The translations under genes and the position numbers were made by a program. Positions 421 through 12,671 of a stretch of 41,035 bases of DNA are shown one piece after another; the stretch's first letter is position 1, and each line of letters opens with the position of its first letter. The DNA comes from Verrucomicrobiota bacterium (GTDB lineage Bacteria > Verrucomicrobiota > Verrucomicrobiia > JAWXBN01), in contig JAWXBN010000097.1 of NCBI GenBank assembly GCA_034440155.1, forward strand, positions 1 to 41,035. The letters are read 5' to 3'. The notes below the pieces were generated by a model that worked only from the letters and a program-made list of their open reading frames with translations, was not told the origin of the DNA and made no database searches.

Positions 421-999
421 ATGAAGGCCTCAAAGAAAAATTTAGACAAGGTTTTTGATACCTTACCACTTAGTGATCATTCAGGCTTTACCCTAATCGA
501 AGTAGTCATCTCGATTACTATTATGGCTATTGCTGCCATAAGTGTGACTGCAGGATTTATTTACACTCAAAAATCAGCGGTAAATGATGCCTACAATACG
601 GGTGCTGTAAGAGTTCTTCAAATGCACGTAGAAAGAATCATGGCTATGTCTGTAGCAGATCTTGTAGCGCAAGAAATTATTACTTATAACTATAGCGGTC
701 TGAGGGTTACGTCACTTTCCTCCACTGATGCCCAAAATCAACTCACAAATGCGACATTAAAGCCATTTATAATCTATTCAGGTTCACCCGCGGTAGCTTC
801 TACCCTTTATGCTACAGAAGATGCGGTAATTGCTTATTCGACCCTGATAACCGTGGCTGTTGTGCCTGTTACCGGTACTTTTAATGGGGCTAGTTATACA
901 AAAAACTTCAAAAAGGCTACTGTTACTACTTATTGGCAAAATATGCGCGGACAAACCATGTCAAGTTCAAATGTTATCATGAGGTCGGATGGAAAATAA
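421..999 (+). CDS. Prepilin-like protein with N-terminal cleavage/methylation motif
   Basis: The protein carries the type IV prepilin signature GFTLIEVVISITIMAIAA: a Gly before the prepilin peptidase cut, Phe at +1, Glu at +5, then about 20 hydrophobic residues that serve as membrane anchor and polymerisation helix. The leader before the Gly is about 22 residues from the ATG at 421. I prefer 421 over the ATG at 397 because AGAGGG (408-413) sits 7 bases before it, whereas 397 has no ribosome binding site. The remaining 150 residues are a Thr/Ser-rich globular region without a recognised domain. The stop overlaps the possible start of the next prepilin gene, so these form an operon. It could be a minor pseudopilin of a type II secretion or type IV pilus system; the assembly ATPase and secretin are not in the window. 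Confidence 0.8.
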   Translation: MKASKKNLDKVFDTLPLSDHSGFTLIEVVISITIMAIAAISVTAGFIYTQKSAVNDAYNTGAVRVLQMHVERIMAMSVADLVAQEIITYNYSGLRVTSLSSTDAQNQLTNATLKPFIIYSGSPAVASTLYATEDAVIAYSTLITVAVVPVTGTFNGASYTKNFKKATVTTYWQNMRGQTMSSSNVIMRSDGK

Positions 1000-1003
1000 T
1001 ATT

Positions 1004-2025
1004 ATGAAACAATCATCATCCAAAGCCTTTACCTTGATTGAGGTGATTACCTCTCTGAGTATTTTCTCGATCTGTATGGCTATGGCAATGAGTGCATTTT
1101 TCGCCACTTCTAAAATATTCTATTTTACGCGGGTTCTGGATCTGGCCCATAACCAAGTACGAGGTGCAGCAGATAAAATATCGACATTAAACCGTCAATC
1201 AGTTTATTACCCCACTATTTACTCGAATACATCATCCTCCTACAATCCTGGTCTTGCTATTTCTAGTAATATAATAAATGAGATACATACTTCAGGAGGT
1301 CTACAAATCACAAATGTGCTCCGTTTCGGTAATGAAGTGCGCATCATGTATGAGGGGTATGGGTTGACTCTTTCCGGAGATGTCGCCATCGGGGCAACCC
1401 AAATCACCATTTCAAATACCGGCACCTTGGTATCTGTAGCCTCGGTTCCCACTGTGTTTTCTACAATAACAGCTTCTAATTCCGTGAGTAATCCAGATAA
1501 TAATCTACGTCTCACACCTTCAACCATCAACAATGCCGGGTATGATTCGTGTTATATTGTCATGAATAACTCCCTTGCAAATGCTGCTATTACGAACGTT
1601 ATCTCGACTAACCCAAATGTAACGATTTTTCAATTAGGTGCTCCTTTTACAAACTCCGCAAATGCTCCTGCACCATCGGGTGCCCAAATTTACGTTGGGA
1701 AAACTGGCCGGTTTATTGTATTAAATCAAGAACTCCGTTTTTACCCTGCTTTAAACAGTTCTCAATATGACACTCTCATGGTAAATGTGACCAGTGGAAG
1801 ACCATTTACGTCACTCAAGGATCTGATACGACTTCTGCTACGACTCTCAATAGAGGACCTCTCCTGACCATTGATTTGGCTTATTCATCACCGGGGGATA
1901 TTACCGGAAAAGGCGTTTACCGTATTGTTACTCGTTCATGCATGAGGACTGATCCTTCATCAAAAAACAGTAATACGATCGCAGCAGGTGGAATAAATTC
2001 TGAAGCGGATAACAATGACAATTAA
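1004..2025 (+). pseudogene. Second prepilin-like protein, frameshifted near 1815
   Basis: The N-terminus has a prepilin motif, KAFTLIEVITSLSIFSICMA, so this is another pilin-like protein with a cleaved, methylated N-terminus. The frame beginning at 989 or 1004 closes at 1867. The -1 frame from about 1815 stays open for some 70 codons to a stop at 2025, just ahead of the ribosome binding site of the next gene. It encodes plausible continuation such as RGPLLTIDLAYSSPGD and GVYRIVTRS. Adding one base near 1812-1818 joins the two parts into about 340 residues. I see no heptamer typical of programmed -1 slippage there. Thus a real inactivating deletion or a sequence error is more likely. Start 1004 gives the shorter leader; 989 overlaps the upstream stop. 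The specific pilus or secretion system is unknown. Confidence 0.7.
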
Positions 2026-2034
2026 GGAGGCGTT

Positions 2035-4179
2035 ATGAAACAAATAAACTCGAATAATACTCATGGCTCAACACTAATCATTGTAATGGGAGCAGTCGTG
2101 TTACTCGCTGCGTTATTAGGAACTGCGGCTTCCCTGAACCAAAATTCAAAACTATTGGCAAGTCGTTCTACAGAAGTGATTGATACCACACTGGCTGCCG
2201 ATACAGGAATGCAACGCATGTTTGGCGAAATGGATGCGCTATTATCAATTCCTGGTAGCTTACCTGATAATGTGACATTCACGACATTATACAATAAATT
2301 CAGCGCAACTAATGTTCCCCTCGATATCTTTCCTGTATCACAATATAGAGTACTTAATTATAATGTTATTCCATTAACAACTAATGGAATTCCAGCAAAC
2401 ATCCCTGATAGTAATATTGTTGATGGCAAGTCGTACCGGTTTTTAGGTGTTGTCTGGGTACAAAGTATAAAAAATCCCGCAGTTATATCTAAAATCCAGC
2501 AAGAAATGCAATTTATCTTCCGTCCACTGTACCAATATGCCATCTTTTATAATCCTGATTTAGAAATGTTTAACGGCCCAGCCATGGTCATAAGTGGAAA
2601 AGTACATGCAAACGGTGGAATCAATCAATTTAACTCTGGACAACTCACATTTAATGGAGGCGTTACCTCCGTGAATAGTGTAACGAATAGAGGACTTCCC
2701 TCTACGAGAGGTGCATCTAGAACGACCGCGGCCACTACTCGGACATATAATAGCGGTCCTCCAAGTTTAACAACAAATAAAAAGCTACCAGGAACAGATG
2801 TACCGACAAATAGTGCATTTATGGGAGTGAACCCAAATATGAGCACAAATGGGGCAATAGAGTTGATCCAAAGACCGATATTAGGAAGTGTTAACGGCAC
2901 AAACTTTACTCGTTATGGGGCATTAACAAATGCTGCTGAAGCGACTGATGACCCGTATGCTCCTATACTTGGGGTGCCGTTAACCGATGAATCCCAAGTA
3001 AATACAAGGTTATTTTATAAAGCTGATCTCAGGATACTTGTGGATAATGCGAGAATCCCTCAGTTTTATACGGGTGAGGTTACTGAAAGTAATCCTAATG
3101 GCTCGCAAATCCCTATGCTCCTGACAAATACAGTCGTCTCGACTAATGGCGTCACTAATTTGGTTGTTCTCACAAATCAAACCTATTTGACACTCCTAAA
3201 CTCTGTCACTACCACCAATAGAATCAGTGATTTCCGTTGGGCTGGAGGTATGACTTCAAACACGGGCTCTGCTGGGATTACAAATATTCGAACAACTGAG
3301 TTTGATATTTCACGGATAGTACATACAAATAATGGAAGTGTTCACTCAAATCTCACGAGTTATAATACAACGAACATATTAGGTACGACTATTGTTACGA
3401 ATACCACTCCCATCCCAGAATTTAACGGCCTAGTATATATATCTAATACAGAAGGGAGTTCAACAAATAAACAGGGTGTCGTACTGAGGAATGGTACTTA
3501 TCTACCAGATAAAGTGATTAATAACGGGGTTACAAATATTAACAGGATTAATCTTGGACTTTCTGTCGTAACTGATAATCCCTTATATATTATTGGTGAT
3601 TATAATACCGGAAGGACTGGGACTCTTGTTGGATCAAACAATAATCCTAATAATAAGGACACCACATTTAATCTGACTAATTCCACATCTGTTGGTTATA
3701 CGAGACGTCCGGCATCTGTCATGGCCGATGCGGTCACTATTCTCTCCCAGAACTACATATCAAAAATGACTAATGCAAATTATAATACAAGAACAACTCC
3801 CGTAACTACTGTAAACACTGCCATTTTAGCCGGGTTTGTTCCCTCAACAATTAGCTCAAATAGTGTTGCCGATGGATTTCTCTCTGGAGGTGTCCATAAT
3901 TTCCCAAGATTCCTAGAGAACTGGAATAATGTTAAATTAGTAATTAACGGCTCGCTTGTGAATATATATAATAGCGAACAGGGTACCTCCCCATTCTATT
4001 GTAATCCAGGTAGTAGTGAAACACCAACTAATATATCTGCATCTTCATTTGCACAATATTATAGTGCTCCCACACGCGTTTGGAATTTTGATGTTAACTA
4101 TCTGGATCCCACTAAGCTCCCTCCAGGTACTCCTATGGTTCGGGATTTTACCTTAGGCCAATGGGCTAAGCTTCCGTAG
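2035..4179 (+). CDS. Large Asn/Thr-rich protein with prepilin/PilX-like N-terminal anchor
   Basis: This 714-residue protein begins with a short polar stretch and a hydrophobic segment (STLIIVMGAVVLLAALLGTA, residues about 12-31) resembling the N-terminus of PilX-like pilus proteins, but it lacks the full FTLIE motif. The rest is exceptionally rich in Asn, Thr, Ser and Gly with many TN and TTN pairs, and has few Lys or Cys. It looks like an extended beta-rich extracellular domain. A strong ribosome binding site (AAGGAGG, 2024-2030) lies 4 bases before the ATG. It follows two prepilin-like genes directly and so probably belongs to the same surface structure or secretion machine. The low GC of 0.4-4.2 kb compared with the rest of the window suggests a distinct origin or strong compositional bias. 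Function unknown. Confidence 0.75.
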   Translation: MKQINSNNTHGSTLIIVMGAVVLLAALLGTAASLNQNSKLLASRSTEVIDTTLAADTGMQRMFGEMDALLSIPGSLPDNVTFTTLYNKFSATNVPLDIFPVSQYRVLNYNVIPLTTNGIPANIPDSNIVDGKSYRFLGVVWVQSIKNPAVISKIQQEMQFIFRPLYQYAIFYNPDLEMFNGPAMVISGKVHANGGINQFNSGQLTFNGGVTSVNSVTNRGLPSTRGASRTTAATTRTYNSGPPSLTTNKKLPGTDVPTNSAFMGVNPNMSTNGAIELIQRPILGSVNGTNFTRYGALTNAAEATDDPYAPILGVPLTDESQVNTRLFYKADLRILVDNARIPQFYTGEVTESNPNGSQIPMLLTNTVVSTNGVTNLVVLTNQTYLTLLNSVTTTNRISDFRWAGGMTSNTGSAGITNIRTTEFDISRIVHTNNGSVHSNLTSYNTTNILGTTIVTNTTPIPEFNGLVYISNTEGSSTNKQGVVLRNGTYLPDKVINNGVTNINRINLGLSVVTDNPLYIIGDYNTGRTGTLVGSNNNPNNKDTTFNLTNSTSVGYTRRPASVMADAVTILSQNYISKMTNANYNTRTTPVTTVNTAILAGFVPSTISSNSVADGFLSGGVHNFPRFLENWNNVKLVINGSLVNIYNSEQGTSPFYCNPGSSETPTNISASSFAQYYSAPTRVWNFDVNYLDPTKLPPGTPMVRDFTLGQWAKLP

Positions 4180-6128: not shown

Positions 6129-8630
6129 CTAGGAAGCCGCGATTTCGAGTTGGGTAAAGGTGAATTTACCGTCTTTGACACCCACTTCTATCGGCTCATG
6201 AAGGCGCAATTGCTCCTTTAATATTTCTTCAGCCAATGGATCCTTGAGTAACGTCTCGATAGTCCGGCGAATCGGTCTGGCTCCGTATTGGGGATCAAAC
6301 CCCTTTTCGAGAACTAGATTTTTGGCCTCATCATTGACATTGAGCACATACCCTTTGGAAGTGATCCGCTCGGTCACCTTTTTGATTTCAATACTGATAA
6401 TCTTAATCAGGTTCTCTTTATTTAATGAGTGGAAAACGATAATATCATCCATACGGTTAATAAACTCTGGGCGGAATGCCTTTTTAGCTTCCTCCATGAT
6501 TTTACCCTTCATATTTTCATAATCGGCACTTTCTGTGGACACACCAAATCCCATGGATGTCTGTTTCCTGAGCATATCAGCTCCGACATTTGATGTCATA
6601 ATGATAATCGTATTGCGGAAGTCCACCTTGCGCCCGAGTCCATCAGTGAGCACTCCATCTTCAAGGACTTGGAGCATGATATTTAACACATCAGGATGCG
6701 CTTTTTCGACCTCGTCAAAAAGCACGACAGAATACGGGCGACGACGCACTTTTTCGGTCAGCTGGCCGCCTTCTTCATATCCCACATATCCGGGAGGTGA
6801 GCCGACCATACGCGATACGTTGAATTTCTCCATGTATTCGGACATATCCACTTGGATCAATGCATCCTTATCCCCAAACATGAACTCCGCAATCTCGCGG
6901 GCCATAAGTGTCTTACCCACCCCTGTCGGCCCGAGGAATACAAATGTACCGATCGGGCGTTTGGGATCCTTTAAATCGGCACGGGAACGGCGTAAAGCTT
7001 TTGATATCGCCGAAGCGGCCTCTGGTTGCCCAATGACTTTGTCTTTGAGGAAATCCTCCATCTGGAGCAGTCGTAATTTATCCTCGGCACTCATCCTGTT
7101 CAGGGGTACCCCTGTCCATTTTGAAATGACATGCATGATATCTTCTTCACCAATAATCGTGCGTGACTGGTCACGCTTGGTTTTCCATTCTTCAATAAAT
7201 TTATCGAGGTCTTCTTTTGTTTTCTTTTCCCTGTCCCTTAATGAAGCCGCCTTTTCAAAATCCTGGGATTTGATCGCATCTTCTTTCTCGACTTTGACTT
7301 TTTCGATCTCCGTCTCCATGATTTTTAACTCCGGGGGGCGGTTCATACTCGCGATACGGGCGCGGGCCCCTGCTTCATCCATGATATCAATCGCCTTATC
7401 CGGCAAAAACCTCCCCGTCAAATAACGGTCGGAAAGTTTTGCTGAAGCTTCTAATGCCCCATCAGTGTAATGGGCTTTATGGTGATCCTCATATTTTGGA
7501 CGTAATCCTTTTAAAATTTCAATGGTTTGATCCACACTCGGTGCTTCGACGATGACTGTCTGGAAACGCCTTTCTAAGGCTGAGTCTTTTTCAATAAATT
7601 TACGGTACTCATTTAATGTCGTGGCTCCGATACATTGCAATTCAGCGCGGGAAAGCGCAGGCTTAATGATATTCGATGCATCCATGGCTCCTTCGGCAGA
7701 TCCCGCCCCGACGATGGTATGGAGTTCATCAATGAACAAGATGACGTTTTTGACACGGCGTATCTCATCCATGACGGCTTTGATCCGTTCCTCAAATTGG
7801 CCACGGTATTTTGTTCCTGCTACCATGAGGGCTAAATCCAAGGTAATAACTTTTTTATCAGCCAGAATGTCTGGCACCTCACCGGAGGATATCCGCTGGG
7901 CGAGGCCCTCCGCAATCGCAGTCTTTCCCACACCGGCTTCCCCGAGAAGCACAGGATTATTCTTGGTACGGCGGCAAAGGATCTGGATGACCCTCTCGAT
8001 TTCATTAGCCCGTCCGATGACGGGATCGAGCTCTCCTTTTCTAGCCATCTCTGTCAGGTCACGCCCAAAAGCTTTTAAGGCCGGTGTCTTTAAATCCTTT
8101 TTGTCCCCTGATCCAGCAGGTGGTATATTCCCAGCGGAAGCGACTCCCGGGGTTTCCCCATCGAAATTACCCGACTCACCACCTTGGGCAAAGTTAGGAT
8201 CCAGTTCCTTAAGGATTTCATTTCGGGCCCTATCGATATCCACATCCAGATTTTTTAAGACTCGGGCAGCCACACCATCACCCTCACGCAAAAGGCCGAG
8301 AAGAATGTGTTCTGTCCCGATATAAGAATGGTTCAGTGCCTTAGCTTCTTTACCCGCCAGAGCCAAAACCTTCTTTACACGCGGGGTATACGGGATATTC
8401 CCTGAAATCTTTGTCTCCGGGCCGGTGCCGACCTGTTTCTCGACTTCCATACGGACTGTCTCAAGATCCAAACCCATTTTTTGAAGGACATTCACAGCCA
8501 CACCCTGACCGAGCTTTATCAACCCGAGCAAAAGGTGTTCAGTCCCGACATAATTATGATTAAAACGTTCGGCCTCCTTGCGGGCGAGTGCTAGAACCTG
8601 TTGTGCACGTGGAGTAAAATTATTCATCAT
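6129..8630 (-). CDS. clpC: ClpC-type AAA+ protease ATPase
   Basis: This 833-residue protein has the full ClpC architecture. Two Clp N-repeats lie at residues 1-145. The first AAA+ module has Walker A GEAGVGKT at 230-237 and Walker B ILFIDE near 297-302. A UVR-like middle segment spans about 446-475. The second AAA+ module has GPTGVGKT at 567-574 and ends in a ClpB/C C-terminal domain. It unfolds substrates and feeds them to ClpP. The UVR-type middle domain separates it from ClpA and ClpB. Its start overlaps the mcsB stop by 4 bases (ATGA), so the two are translated together. McsB marks proteins with phosphoarginine for ClpCP in Bacillus, and the same coupling is probable here. A terminator follows at 6053-6082. 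It contains no copy of the GCAAWTTGC word, despite its length. Confidence 0.97.
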
Positions 8631-9736
8631 TCCCCCTCCTGGATTGTCTCTTGTTTACTGGTTATGTGAACCTTTGGGCTCGGTGTAGAAAGTAGTTTGC
8701 CCCTGATGATTCCAGCACGTAATACATCCCTTTCCTCGGCGGAAAGTTTACGTGATTCACTTTTCTGCAAATGGGCTGGCTGGGTCGCGATGAATAAATC
8801 ATCAATCAGGGGCCTTAAGCTTTCTGCGAACATCTCCATGTCCACTCCCATTTTCATAATTGAAAGCAAATTTGTCGCTTCTTTGGAAGTCATCGTATAG
8901 GCATTTGTCAGGACACCATAAGCTCGTCCCACTTGATCATTCACCGTGGCGACTTTACTTTCAATGAGTGTACCCCGGGCATTGTCTTCGTGCTCGATTA
9001 TCTGGGCGACGACTTTTGTCAACCGGTCGATTATTTCCTGCTCCGACTCACCCAGGGTCGTCTGATTGGAAATCTGGAAAAGATTACCACTGGCTTCGGT
9101 CCCCTCCCCGTATAATCCGCGGACAGCCAGTCCGAGTTTATTCACAGCCTGTATGATCTGGTTAATCTGCTCGGAAAGCACTAACCCTGGCAAATGTAAC
9201 ATCACGGAAGCCCTCATTCCAGTCCCGACATTTGTCGGGCATGCCGTGAGGAACCCTATCTTCGTGGAAAAGGCGAAATCCAAGGCCTCATTGAGCTCGT
9301 CATCGACTTTATCGATCGTATTCCATGTTTTTAGGAGGTTAAATCCGGTATGGATCGACTGCATCCGTAGGTGATCCTCCTCATTAATCATGATACTCAA
9401 GGTCTCGTCTTTATTGATCACCAGCCCGCTTCCCATGTTCTTGGCAGCGTGTTCACGGCTTACGAGGTGTTTTTCGACTAAAATCTGTTTTTCCAGAGCT
9501 GTGTATTGATCCATGGAGCTACTGACTTTCGCTCCTTTCATCTCAGGTAATGCTTTCACGCTGGGTTGGATTGTTTCAAGAACCTTGATCCTATCCGCCT
9601 TTTTAGCCCACCCTGGAAAAGCCACCCCGCGGAGATTACGGGCCAAGCGGATACGGCTGCTCATCACGATTCTCTGAGCTGATTGCTTGAAAGCAGGATC
9701 ATCGAGCTGACTTTTAGATGTTTTGGTCTGTTTCAT
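8627..9736 (-). CDS. mcsB: Protein-arginine kinase McsB
   Basis: The 369 residues show the ATP:guanido phosphotransferase fold in its bacterial protein-kinase form. SSRIRLARNLRG (26-37) binds nucleotide, NEEDHLR (118-124) supplies the guanidino-side glutamate, and CPTNVGTGMR (166-175) supplies the active-site cysteine region. RDVLRA (336-341) matches the RDxxRA allosteric phosphoarginine site known in Bacillus and Geobacillus McsB. It phosphorylates arginines on damaged proteins as a degradation tag for ClpCP. The gene lies directly upstream of clpC with a 4-base overlap. The partners of the Firmicute operon, ctsR and mcsA, are not beside it; the next gene upstream is an aminotransferase. The activator and repressor may be elsewhere or missing. 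Confidence 0.95.
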   Translation of the reverse strand: MKQTKTSKSQLDDPAFKQSAQRIVMSSRIRLARNLRGVAFPGWAKKADRIKVLETIQPSVKALPEMKGAKVSSSMDQYTALEKQILVEKHLVSREHAAKNMGSGLVINKDETLSIMINEEDHLRMQSIHTGFNLLKTWNTIDKVDDELNEALDFAFSTKIGFLTACPTNVGTGMRASVMLHLPGLVLSEQINQIIQAVNKLGLAVRGLYGEGTEASGNLFQISNQTTLGESEQEIIDRLTKVVAQIIEHEDNARGTLIESKVATVNDQVGRAYGVLTNAYTMTSKEATNLLSIMKMGVDMEMFAESLRPLIDDLFIATQPAHLQKSESRKLSAEERDVLRAGIIRGKLLSTPSPKVHITSKQETIQEGE

Positions 9737-9864: not shown

Positions 9865-10734
9865 CTAAACGATAGGTTCACCCTCAACTTTCGTCAGCTC
9901 TTTGAATGCAGCGATCATTTTTTTTGTCACTGTCCCCGGTTTTCCTGAGCCGATTTGTCTCATATCCACCTTTGTGACAGGGACAATTTCTGCCGCTGTG
10001 CCCGTGATAAACATCTCATCGGCATTATAGACATCATACCGGGTCAACTGGCTTTCGACCATTTCAATATTAAAATGAACAGCTAAATCAAAAATGACGT
10101 CACGAGTAATTCCTTTTAATGCGCCTGCACTGCTCAACGGGGTGAATATTTTACCTTTATTCACCAAGAAAATATTATCCCCGGTGCATTCAGCCACATA
10201 ACCTTCATTATTCAGCATGATCGCCTCTTCACAACCACACTGGCGGGCTTCGATCTTCGCAAGAATGTTATTCAGATAATTCAAGGATTTGATGGATGGA
10301 TTTAATGCGGCGTGCGACATACGGCGCGTGGCCACAGTGGCGATCGTTAATCCCTTATCGTAATATTCCTTTGGATAGAGTTGGATTTTATCGGCGATAA
10401 TGAATACGCTGGGCTTCACACAATTCCATGGACTTAAGCCTAAGTTCCCCACTCCTCGGGTGACCACCAAGCGGATGTACCCGTCATAAACTTTATTCAT
10501 CTTACAGGCCTTAACCGTCGCCTCACAAATTTCCTTATGACTCATGGGAATCGTCAGCAAGATCGCTTTGGCAGAATAGAATAAACGCTCGATATGTTCT
10601 TTCAGTTTAAAGACCCGTCCATGGTAAGCCCGAATGCCTTCAAACACTCCGTCCCCATAAAGTAATCCATGGTCAAAAACGGATATTTTCGCATTCTTCT
10701 GATCAACAAATTTTCCATCCAAATATATCTTCAT
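9865..10734 (-). CDS. ilvE: Branched-chain amino acid aminotransferase, class IV
   Basis: Fold-type IV PLP aminotransferase of 289 residues. It opens with MKIYLDGKFV and has GLLYGDGVFEGIRAYHG, the PLP-binding lysine in IKSLNYLNN (Lys149), and the AECTGDNIF block. It would transaminate leucine, isoleucine and valine with 2-oxoglutarate in the cytoplasm. The frame is open to 10860, but the start at 10734 is chosen because AGGAGG stands about 5 bases before it and the family N-terminus begins there. The longer version would also overlap the divergent lipoprotein gene's leader. A D-amino acid aminotransferase or aminodeoxychorismate lyase has the same fold, but the length and the motifs favour IlvE. 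No other ilv or leu gene is nearby. Confidence 0.9.
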   Translation of the reverse strand: MKIYLDGKFVDQKNAKISVFDHGLLYGDGVFEGIRAYHGRVFKLKEHIERLFYSAKAILLTIPMSHKEICEATVKACKMNKVYDGYIRLVVTRGVGNLGLSPWNCVKPSVFIIADKIQLYPKEYYDKGLTIATVATRRMSHAALNPSIKSLNYLNNILAKIEARQCGCEEAIMLNNEGYVAECTGDNIFLVNKGKIFTPLSSAGALKGITRDVIFDLAVHFNIEMVESQLTRYDVYNADEMFITGTAAEIVPVTKVDMRQIGSGKPGTVTKKMIAAFKELTKVEGEPIV

Positions 10735-10863
10735 TTCGCCTCCTGTAATACAGCTTATTTGAACCGAAAAACATGATGACCCGCAAGGGAAATTCCGCAA
10801 GCATTCGCACCCTATGATTGACAGCTTGAGATTTTGGAATTTTCCGTTATAGATAATCAAACC

Positions 10864-11109
10864 ATGACCTTCCCCTCATTACCCCGACTCATCCTGCTCG
10901 CTGTCCTTATGCTCCATATTTCTGGGTGCGCTGGCCCGACCACGGTGGTAGAAGGTAATGGGTATGGCGATTATAATGTCATGAATGTCCCTGGTGGACC
11001 TGCGGGCGAAAGATACATGGAAAATCTCCCCCAAAATAATCCTGCTAACTGGAATGACGGCATCATGCCGTATAATCCCGACCCGGATCCGGGTGAATCA
11101 ATGGATTAG
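10864..11109 (+). CDS. Small predicted lipoprotein
   Basis: An 81-residue protein with a lipoprotein signal: MTFPSLPRL, a hydrophobic core, then the lipobox ISGC at about residues 17-20 that would be lipidated at Cys20. The mature part is short, Pro/Asn/Gly-rich and probably unstructured (PGGPAGERYMENLPQNNPANW). The ATG at 10864 is preferred over an upstream TTG at 10834 because it puts the signal peptide at the N-terminus, but no clear ribosome binding site precedes it. It is divergent from ilvE and overlaps the end of the convergent ABC ATPase gene by four bases. Function not recognised. The neighbouring LolD-like ATPase belongs to a family that can export lipoproteins, but a link is only suggestive. 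Confidence 0.6.
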   Translation: MTFPSLPRLILLAVLMLHISGCAGPTTVVEGNGYGDYNVMNVPGGPAGERYMENLPQNNPANWNDGIMPYNPDPDPGESMD

Positions 11110-11759
11110 ACGAATTTACCGTCCCTCATCTGGAGCTGGATATCACCCTTCTCGGCTAATTCTTTTTCATGGGTCACTAATAGGAGTGTTTTTTTCTCCC
11201 TCCTGACTAACCCGATCAATAACGAGGCAATTTGCTCTGCATTACCGCTATCCAGATTTCCGGTGGGCTCATCGGCGAAAATAATATCAGGGTCATTGAT
11301 CAGGCACCGCGCAATAGCGACCCGCTGCTGTTCGCCTCCCGAGAGCTCCAGCGGTTTATGGTTCTTTCTCGACCCTAATCCGACCTCCTCCAATAATCGA
11401 GCGGCACGATCGAGATCATGTTTTCCTCGGATCATAGCGGGAAGATGGACATTTTCGAGTGCATCAAGCTCGGGCAAAAGCTGGAAAGCCTGGAAAATAA
11501 ACCCAAACCGGTTATTCCTCAAAAAACTCAATTCCCCGGATGTCATCGTCCCCAAGCTACGTCCTTCTAAAAGAATTTCGCCACTGGTCGGTTTATCCAG
11601 AGCTCCGAAAAGCTGGAGAAGCGTGCTTTTTCCCGCCCCGGAGGCCCCTCTGATCGTGGTGACTTTACCCTGAGTGATTTTCACATCCACCCCCTTGAGC
11701 GCATCGACTTGCACCTTACCGAGGAAATATGTCTTAAAAACATTTCGAGACTCTAACAT
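11106..11759 (-). CDS. lolD: ABC transporter ATP-binding protein, LolD/MacB type
   Basis: A 217-residue stand-alone ATPase with Walker A GASGAGKS (38-45), Q-loop region FIFQAFQLLPELDALENV, signature LSGGEQQRVAIARCL, and Walker B IIFADEPTGNLD. The IFQ.F.LLPELDALENV and TGNLDS features are those of the LolD/FtsE/MacB subgroup, which drives lipoprotein release from the inner membrane or mechanotransmission-type export. No LolC/E-like permease is beside it; pdxA lies 9 bases upstream. Hence the symbol is by sequence type only, and it could serve another MacB-like complex. A GCAAWTTGC copy (11227) falls in AEQIASL near the C-terminus. Confidence 0.82.
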   Translation of the reverse strand: MLESRNVFKTYFLGKVQVDALKGVDVKITQGKVTTIRGASGAGKSTLLQLFGALDKPTSGEILLEGRSLGTMTSGELSFLRNNRFGFIFQAFQLLPELDALENVHLPAMIRGKHDLDRAARLLEEVGLGSRKNHKPLELSGGEQQRVAIARCLINDPDIIFADEPTGNLDSGNAEQIASLLIGLVRREKKTLLLVTHEKELAEKGDIQLQMRDGKFV

Positions 11760-11768
11760 AGAAACCCT

Positions 11769-12671
11769 TTATTTCTTCTTCATCCTGCCAGTGGCGAGAG
11801 CCGCGGCGAGATTAATCGCCGAAATCATGCTCTCGGGACTGGCTTTACCTTTGCCCGCAATATCAAATGCCGTGCCATGATCCGGGGAGGTCCTCACGAC
11901 CGGCAGTCCTAGGGTGACATTGACCCCTGTATCAAATGATAACATCTTCAAGGGGATCAGGCCCTGATCATGATACATGCATACCACTGCATCATAAACA
12001 CCCCGTAACGCATAATAAAAGGCTGTATCCGGGCTCAAGGGACCAGATAAATGAATATTACGCCCGAGCAATTTGCGCGCCTGTGAAATAGCCGGGGCGA
12101 TGATCTTCGCCTCTTCATCCCCGATTTCCCCGGCATGGGGGTTCAGCCCCAAAACCCCGATTTTAGGTTTTTGAATTCCCGTAAACCGGCAGAACTCTGT
12201 TGTCAGTAAAATGATATCCTTGATTCTTGAGGGGGTCAGTGCCTTGCTGACATCTTTGACGGGCAGATGCGTCGTCACGAGGCTCACCCGGAGTTTATCA
12301 CTACAGAGCATCATCGCAAATTTCTCAGTCCCACAGGCATCGGCGAGGAATTCAGTCTGCCCGGGAAACTTGAACCCCACCGACTTTAAAGCCGTCTTAT
12401 TCACCGGAGCGGTCACCAGTGCAGCAATTTGCCCGTTCAAAGCCTGACGCACACCTTCCCCGAGGCTTTCTAGTGCAAATTGCGCGGACATACGGGAATA
12501 TTTTCCCGGAGCAATCTGCGCGGGGATCTCGTCATGCAGGATCACTCGATAAAGGAAACCTTTATCCAGACGCCCGCTAGACAGGGACTTTTCTACGATC
12601 TCAGGACCGATCCCGGCAAGATCACCTAATGTAATCCCTATCACAGGTTTTGCGGCCATCACCTTTTTCAT
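11769..12671 (-). CDS. pdxA: 4-hydroxythreonine-4-phosphate dehydrogenase
   Basis: PdxA family oxidoreductase of vitamin B6 synthesis; it oxidises 4-phosphohydroxy-L-threonine with NAD in the cytoplasm. Visible blocks are IGITLGDLAGIGPEI at the start, APVNK, TTHLPVKDV (first metal His), LGLNPHAGE (second) and CMYHDQGLIPLK (third), plus the C-terminal RTSPDHGTAFDIAGKG. Metal-binding histidines are intact. The start at 12671 is chosen because its ATG overlaps the TGA of the PAP2 gene (ATGA) and GGAG lies about 8 bases upstream. The frame continues to 12749, but that segment has no family similarity. Three copies of GCAAWTTGC lie in it, encoding KLL, GQIA and AQFA. pdxJ, the next pathway gene, is not in the window. 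Confidence 0.93.
   Translation of the reverse strand: MKKVMAAKPVIGITLGDLAGIGPEIVEKSLSSGRLDKGFLYRVILHDEIPAQIAPGKYSRMSAQFALESLGEGVRQALNGQIAALVTAPVNKTALKSVGFKFPGQTEFLADACGTEKFAMMLCSDKLRVSLVTTHLPVKDVSKALTPSRIKDIILLTTEFCRFTGIQKPKIGVLGLNPHAGEIGDEEAKIIAPAISQARKLLGRNIHLSGPLSPDTAFYYALRGVYDAVVCMYHDQGLIPLKMLSFDTGVNVTLGLPVVRTSPDHGTAFDIAGKGKASPESMISAINLAAALATGRMKKK

Follow-up and report, generated by a model that had tools for sequence, protein, structure and literature searches.

The stretch at 421–4179 is a real, conserved minor-pilin cassette, in which two small prepilins precede a large PilX/GspK-like protein (Table 1). We consider it likely that the three proteins make up a priming complex at the tip of a type IV filament, of the GspI-J-K/PilV-W-X kind, in which the large subunit would be a modular tip pilin with a ligand-binding solenoid. 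The cassette lies near the start of the window, i.e. the whole stretch of 41,035 nucleotides analysed here, which comes from a Verrucomicrobiota bacterium with a genome of 2.76 Mb in 132 contigs. The initial annotation had described two short prepilin-like reading frames followed by a large protein with a PilX-like anchor and a body dominated by Asn, Thr and Ser, all within an AT-rich stretch, and had proposed that the large protein may sit at a tip or be exposed on the surface. This description stood: the three reading frames are in place, the N_methyl signal is present on the first two, the large protein has the composition described, and both its PilX-like anchor and the proposed tip or surface location are supported.

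Table 1. Features of the minor-pilin cassette and of a small protein found in related loci. Positions are those of the window, except in the last row, where they are those of the named loci.
Feature	Position	Strand	Basis
PilV/GspI-like minor prepilin P0001, 192 aa	421..999	+	N_methyl PF07963, E 2.2e-7
PilW/GspJ-like minor prepilin P0002, 288 aa as read	1004..1867	+	N_methyl PF07963, E 2.2e-6
Likely lost C-terminus of P0002, 84-codon open stretch in another frame	1771..2025	+	Frame, spacing, truncation
Large PilX/GspK-like modular pilin P0003, 714 aa, with predicted beta-solenoid insert	2035..4179	+	Family alignments A1 and A2; HpsA profile; AlphaFold
Predicted leader peptide of P0003, ending at Gly11	2035..2067	+	Residues −1 and +5 of relatives
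Predicted long N-terminal pilin helix, residues 11–70	2065..2244	+	AlphaFold model m9b878a49fc9b, block pLDDT 81–95
Three predicted pilin-type beta strands, residues 104–164 (104–114, 131–142, 150–164)	2344..2526	+	AlphaFold
Predicted beta-solenoid module with loops, residues ~170–695	2542..4119	+	Alignments, AlphaFold, HpsA profile
Predicted closing beta strand, residues 701–713, expected to rejoin the pilin sheet	4135..4173	+	AlphaFold
Small signal-peptide-like protein in related loci	L043 5711–6361; L049 5847–6488; L034 6259–6951; L035 1782–2474; L045 2456–3076		

Gene content, conservation and a probable frameshift

Both small proteins scored above the Pfam cut-off for N_methyl (PF07963) and above the NCBIfam cut-off for TIGR02532, and are class III prepilins with the type IV pilin signal and Glu5 (cleavage-site motifs, with the cut marked by a slash, G/FTLIEV in P0001 and A/FTLIEV in P0002). 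P0001, upstream of whose start a further in-frame ATG is found at 397, was matched over its full length by a profile of first-position prepilins from 66 related loci. The large protein P0003 contains 11.8% Asn, 12.3% Thr and 8.5% Ser (33% in sum) and is among the most extreme members of its family in this respect; the richness in these residues is a family trait, as the family median is 27%. The GC content is 38–41% in the first 4 kb, compared with 41–57% (mostly at least 44%) over the remaining window.

Upstream of the trio lies a PpiC-type peptidyl-prolyl isomerase that is cut by the start of the window, at base 1 of contig C97, and downstream, on the opposite strand, a homocysteine methyltransferase/MTHFR fusion. 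In agreement with the initial annotation, no genes for an assembly ATPase, a secretin or a prepilin peptidase were found adjacent to the trio on this contig, the end of which limits the view upstream. Further along the window (6129–9736), a ClpC-like ATPase is encoded next to a McsB-type ATP:guanido phosphotransferase, a pairing familiar from arginine-phosphorylation-dependent proteolysis in Bacillota.

The trio is not an orphan, and in most of the relatives examined one or two prepilin genes immediately precede the large gene. A scan of public genomes, with one genome per species, returned approximately 280 loci, the best 79 of which belong mainly to Verrucomicrobiota and in some cases to Zixiibacteriota. 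Within the class, relatives of the large protein were detected in 16 of 56 other genomes (22–33% identity in the alignment), and a 92-member profile found matches in 33 of 113 genomes (approximately 29% of those sampled). Across 91 related loci, prepilins accounted for 129 of the 251 ORFs located just upstream on the same strand, compared with none of the 186 upstream ORFs on the opposite strand, which served as a control, 11 of the 496 ORFs downstream of the large gene and 17 of the 1078 ORFs more than 3 kb away; the adjacency of prepilins and large gene thus exceeds chance. Where enough upstream sequence was available (76 loci), at least two prepilins preceded the large gene in 45 loci and one in 24.

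The same genome carries a second copy on contig C24, likewise behind two prepilins. A quick tree placed P0003 on a long branch among the Verrucomicrobiota sequences (modest support, 80), and the C24 copy, which is intact and also long-branched, clustered apart from it with weak support; because of this separate placement, the two do not resemble a recent duplication. Contig C24 also encodes the third prepilin trio of the genome (locus L004, 12142–14902), composed of a PilV-like protein, a PilW-like protein and a 495-aa PilX-like protein with a DUF7305 domain. The interval separating the two C24 trios (10209–12145) encodes, on the opposite strand, a sensor histidine kinase of the PAS type and a LuxR-type response regulator, both recognized by sequence; this pair may control both trios. 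In several relatives, a small protein (206–230 aa) with a signal-peptide-like N-terminus is encoded 3′ of the large gene (Table 1); in the window it does not follow the large gene.

The gene encoding P0002 is probably frameshifted, with its C-terminus cut short. As read, P0002 stops 167 bases before the large gene, whereas the second prepilins of 63 related loci terminate at −47 to +32 bases relative to the large gene, never more than 60 bases away from it, and the open stretch in another frame (Table 1) leaves 9 bases between its end and the start codon (ATG) of the large gene. When P0002 was compared with a profile of second-position prepilins, only positions 1–136 of 204, the first two thirds, were matched. 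Because the 84-residue tail itself shows only weak direct similarity (z > 3 in only 4 of 63 comparisons), the case for a frameshift draws on frame, spacing and truncation. Its source could be a mutation or an assembly error.

Predicted architecture of the large protein

P0003 is predicted to adopt a pilin fold with an inserted beta-solenoid. Position −1 of the large protein is Gly or Ala in 91 of 92 relatives, and mature position 5 is Glu in none of the 92; first subunits of the GspK/PilX type, which start filaments, share both traits. Two AlphaFold models of P0003 were obtained, one from a shallower alignment of 20 rows and one from a deeper alignment of 92 rows, the latter with an overall pLDDT of 74 and a pTM of 0.79. 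Structure prediction returned the helix, the strands, the solenoid and the closing strand listed in Table 1, but the variable middle of the solenoid (residues ~240–460) was predicted largely at low confidence. In the 92-row model, the solenoid region is made up of many short strands with regular spacing, and its conserved motifs include FYNPDLE..GPAMVISGKVHANG, DAVTILS and SGGVHNFPRFLENW. Three relatives (L153, 647–2323; L157, 5596–7320; and L161, 5563–7410) open with a secretion-signal-like stretch and not with the PilX-like anchor, and perhaps represent the solenoid module outside a pilin setting.

The predicted strand order is compatible, in both models, with that of ComZ, the DNA-binding tip pilin of Thermus. 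In ComZ, a beta-solenoid interrupts a GspK-like pilin domain between its last two strands, and the protein pairs with the neighbouring pilin PilA2 (PMC6561018). Searched with Foldseek, the 20-row model gave ComZ (6qvi) as its sole significant PDB hit (E 2.3e-5, probability 0.99, with low TM-scores of 0.22/0.30), and the 92-row model gave zero significant matches in the PDB, ComZ included. The family profiles A1, A2 and A3, run against all PDB chains, retrieved neither ComZ nor any credible sequence match; matches to gp120 (E 0.05–0.2) have the look of composition noise and were rejected. We therefore treat the ComZ-like architecture as a supported prediction and not as demonstrated homology.

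A receptor for DNA uptake, with the trio as functional equivalent of Thermus PilA2/ComZ binding extracellular DNA for transformation, would fit this architecture and the one Foldseek hit, as well as the ComEC encoded in the same genome and the relatives in Thermus and Deinococcus, genera known for natural transformation. We nonetheless find this role somewhat doubtful: ComEC is also encoded in most control genomes, P0003 has no sequence similarity to ComZ, it contains few lysines (2.4%) and its net charge is near neutral. Against the last point, ComZ too has no obvious basic patch (PMC6561018).

HpsA and kinship beyond the phylum

Judged from profile matches, P0003 is a distant relative of HpsA, a cyanobacterial protein required for slime secretion. 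The initial annotation had recognized no known domain in the large protein. This held for Pfam, in which P0003 had no hit (N_methyl included) and the search with P0003 and 19 relatives gave nothing credible, but not for NCBIfam, where P0003 matched the HpsA profile (NF038301; E 2.5e-23, 81.8 bits) far under the curated equivalog cut-off of 400; the predicted ComZ-like layout also counts against a wholly unfamiliar protein. The refuting condition named in the initial annotation applies only in part: HpsA is a described protein, though without a described role, and no clear match to GspK or to an adhesin family was found. The HpsA match comprises two collinear stretches (residues 163–196 and ~579–690, against model positions 287–320 and 1326–1443), which lie at the two ends of the predicted solenoid. 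All 20 family members scanned matched the same profile, always under the curated cut-off. A composition artefact was rejected as the cause, since the DUF7305 PilX-like protein of the third trio and the true GspK of the same genome do not match HpsA.

A six-frame search of plasmids detected homologues in Thermus, Deinococcus and Picosynechococcus. Three prepilin-type genes were found directly upstream in four of the plasmid loci examined; in another, three unnamed small genes take the place of the prepilins, and in one that is cut by the end of the record a single prepilin was seen upstream. The five large proteins scanned from plasmid loci all matched HpsA, again under the curated cut-off (the best HpsA score seen was approximately 87 of 400 bits), and the pseudopilins upstream in two plasmid loci matched HpsC. 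In the hps locus, HpsA, which has no described function, is paired with the pseudopilins HpsB-D (PMC4284469; PMC6495340).

These matches, in every relative and plasmid-locus protein scanned and in the neighbouring pseudopilins, together with the pairing in the hps locus, would suit a tip related to polysaccharide secretion or slime, as in cyanobacterial HpsA with its pseudopilins. Such a role is rather unlikely, however, given that the HpsA scores all remain far from the equivalog cut-off, that no glycosyltransferase cluster lies beside the trio in the window (where the upstream side is cut by the contig end) and that HpsA itself has no described role. A broader proposal, to which we would give slightly less than even chances, is that HpsA, the PilX-like proteins of Deinococcota plasmids and hundreds of large proteins of Verrucomicrobiota belong to a single trans-phylum superfamily of tip pilins with a beta-solenoid, every one of which comes with two or three adaptor pilins of its own; under this proposal, HpsA would handle polysaccharide at the tip of a filament. 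The shared profile offers a testable idea on the part of HpsA in slime secretion. The novelty lies in connecting the Verrucomicrobiota cassettes with HpsA and with the proteins of Deinococcota, as modular tip pilins are already a known kind (PMC8179133).

Assembly machinery and comparison with known systems

At loci apart from the trio, the genome encodes several GspE/PilB/PilT-type ATPases, three GspF/PilC-type proteins, secretins and one prepilin peptidase. Contig C93 carries a T2SS-like run (L167, 422–13473) with GspE, GspF, GspD, GspG and GspK and with more prepilins between G and K; the presence of its own GspG, GspD and GspK (304 aa) was established by domain search. The separate, uncharacterised pilus or secretion system suggested by the initial annotation is not borne out, and because other loci encode PilB/PilT/PilC-type proteins and this T2SS, which has a GspG-K region of its own, the trio can use existing machinery. 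Co-occurrence with such genes is seen at the level of the genome, but without linkage to the trio. Among the 113 genomes, the prepilin peptidase is present in all 33 that have the large protein, and none of the 13 peptidase-less genomes has it (p 0.008, kinship ignored), a co-occurrence that is weak because 11 of these 13 come from one family. PilY1 was not found in 112 of the 113 genomes searched, this one included. Membership of the Verru_Chthon cassette was rejected: the small pilins gave weak N-terminal hits to TIGR02599 (protein C) far under the cut-off, and the NCBIfam models of this cassette had no hit to P0003 at E 1.

The order small-small-large equals that of GspI-J-K, and with a T2SS in the genome the trio could be a specialized pseudopilus tip that serves as an alternative to GspI-J-K in recruiting or expelling particular exoproteins. 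We regard this as unlikely, since the T2SS on C93 is already equipped with prepilins up to GspK, and the Pfam search found no T2SSK domain (PF03934, PF21687) in P0003, whereas the C93 GspK does match, so that membership of P0003 in GspK was rejected. A degenerating, non-functional copy, AT-rich, fast-evolving and with a broken second gene, would agree with the probable frameshift in P0002 and the long branch of P0003, but is improbable, as the large ORF is uninterrupted and retains almost all of the residues conserved in the family alignments, the frameshift could be an assembly error and the C24 copy is intact yet long-branched too.

For the tip complex, our preferred reading, we infer the location at the tip, the order of assembly and the binding of a ligand as follows. 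The single prepilin peptidase of the genome would cleave all three proteins, which would then come together in the inner membrane and initiate a filament powered by pilus or T2SS motors whose genes lie at other loci. The two small pilins would act as adaptors like GspI/GspJ or PilV/PilW, and the large protein, in the manner of GspK, PilX or ComZ, as a pilin head bearing the inserted beta-solenoid, which would be displayed at the filament tip and bind an extracellular ligand (DNA, polysaccharide or a surface). Tip subunits determine what a type IV filament binds, and to our knowledge few of them are known outside model organisms. The presence of the family in approximately 29% of the sampled genomes of the class, its bulky predicted solenoid and the missing PilY1 suggest that in this phylum solenoid tip pilins take the place that PilY1 has in others.

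The parallel with GspI-J-K and PilV-W-X is close because two Glu5-bearing partners precede a large protein that has no Glu5. In GspI-GspJ-GspK, the tip of the T2SS pseudopilus, two small pilins are likewise followed by a larger one without Glu5 and with an inserted domain, but the insert of GspK is an alpha-domain and that of P0003 a predicted beta-solenoid. PilV-PilW-PilX of type IVa pili share with the trio the gene order, the class III signals and the PilX-like anchor, although PilX is small, unlike P0003, and the PilY1 of type IVa pili was not found in this genome. HpsA and HpsB-D, from the hormogonium polysaccharide locus of filamentous cyanobacteria, are similar to the trio in the profile match and in the accompanying pseudopilins; the HpsA profile is, however, 1503 positions long compared with the 714 aa of P0003 (which scores 82 of 400 bits), and the hps locus has glycosyltransferase genes whereas the neighbours downstream of the trio are metabolic genes (upstream being cut by the contig end). 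ComZ/PilA2 at the tip of the Thermus thermophilus competence pilus (PDB 6QVI) shows the order predicted for P0003, i.e. helix, three strands, solenoid and last strand, and the pilin genes are adjacent in both.
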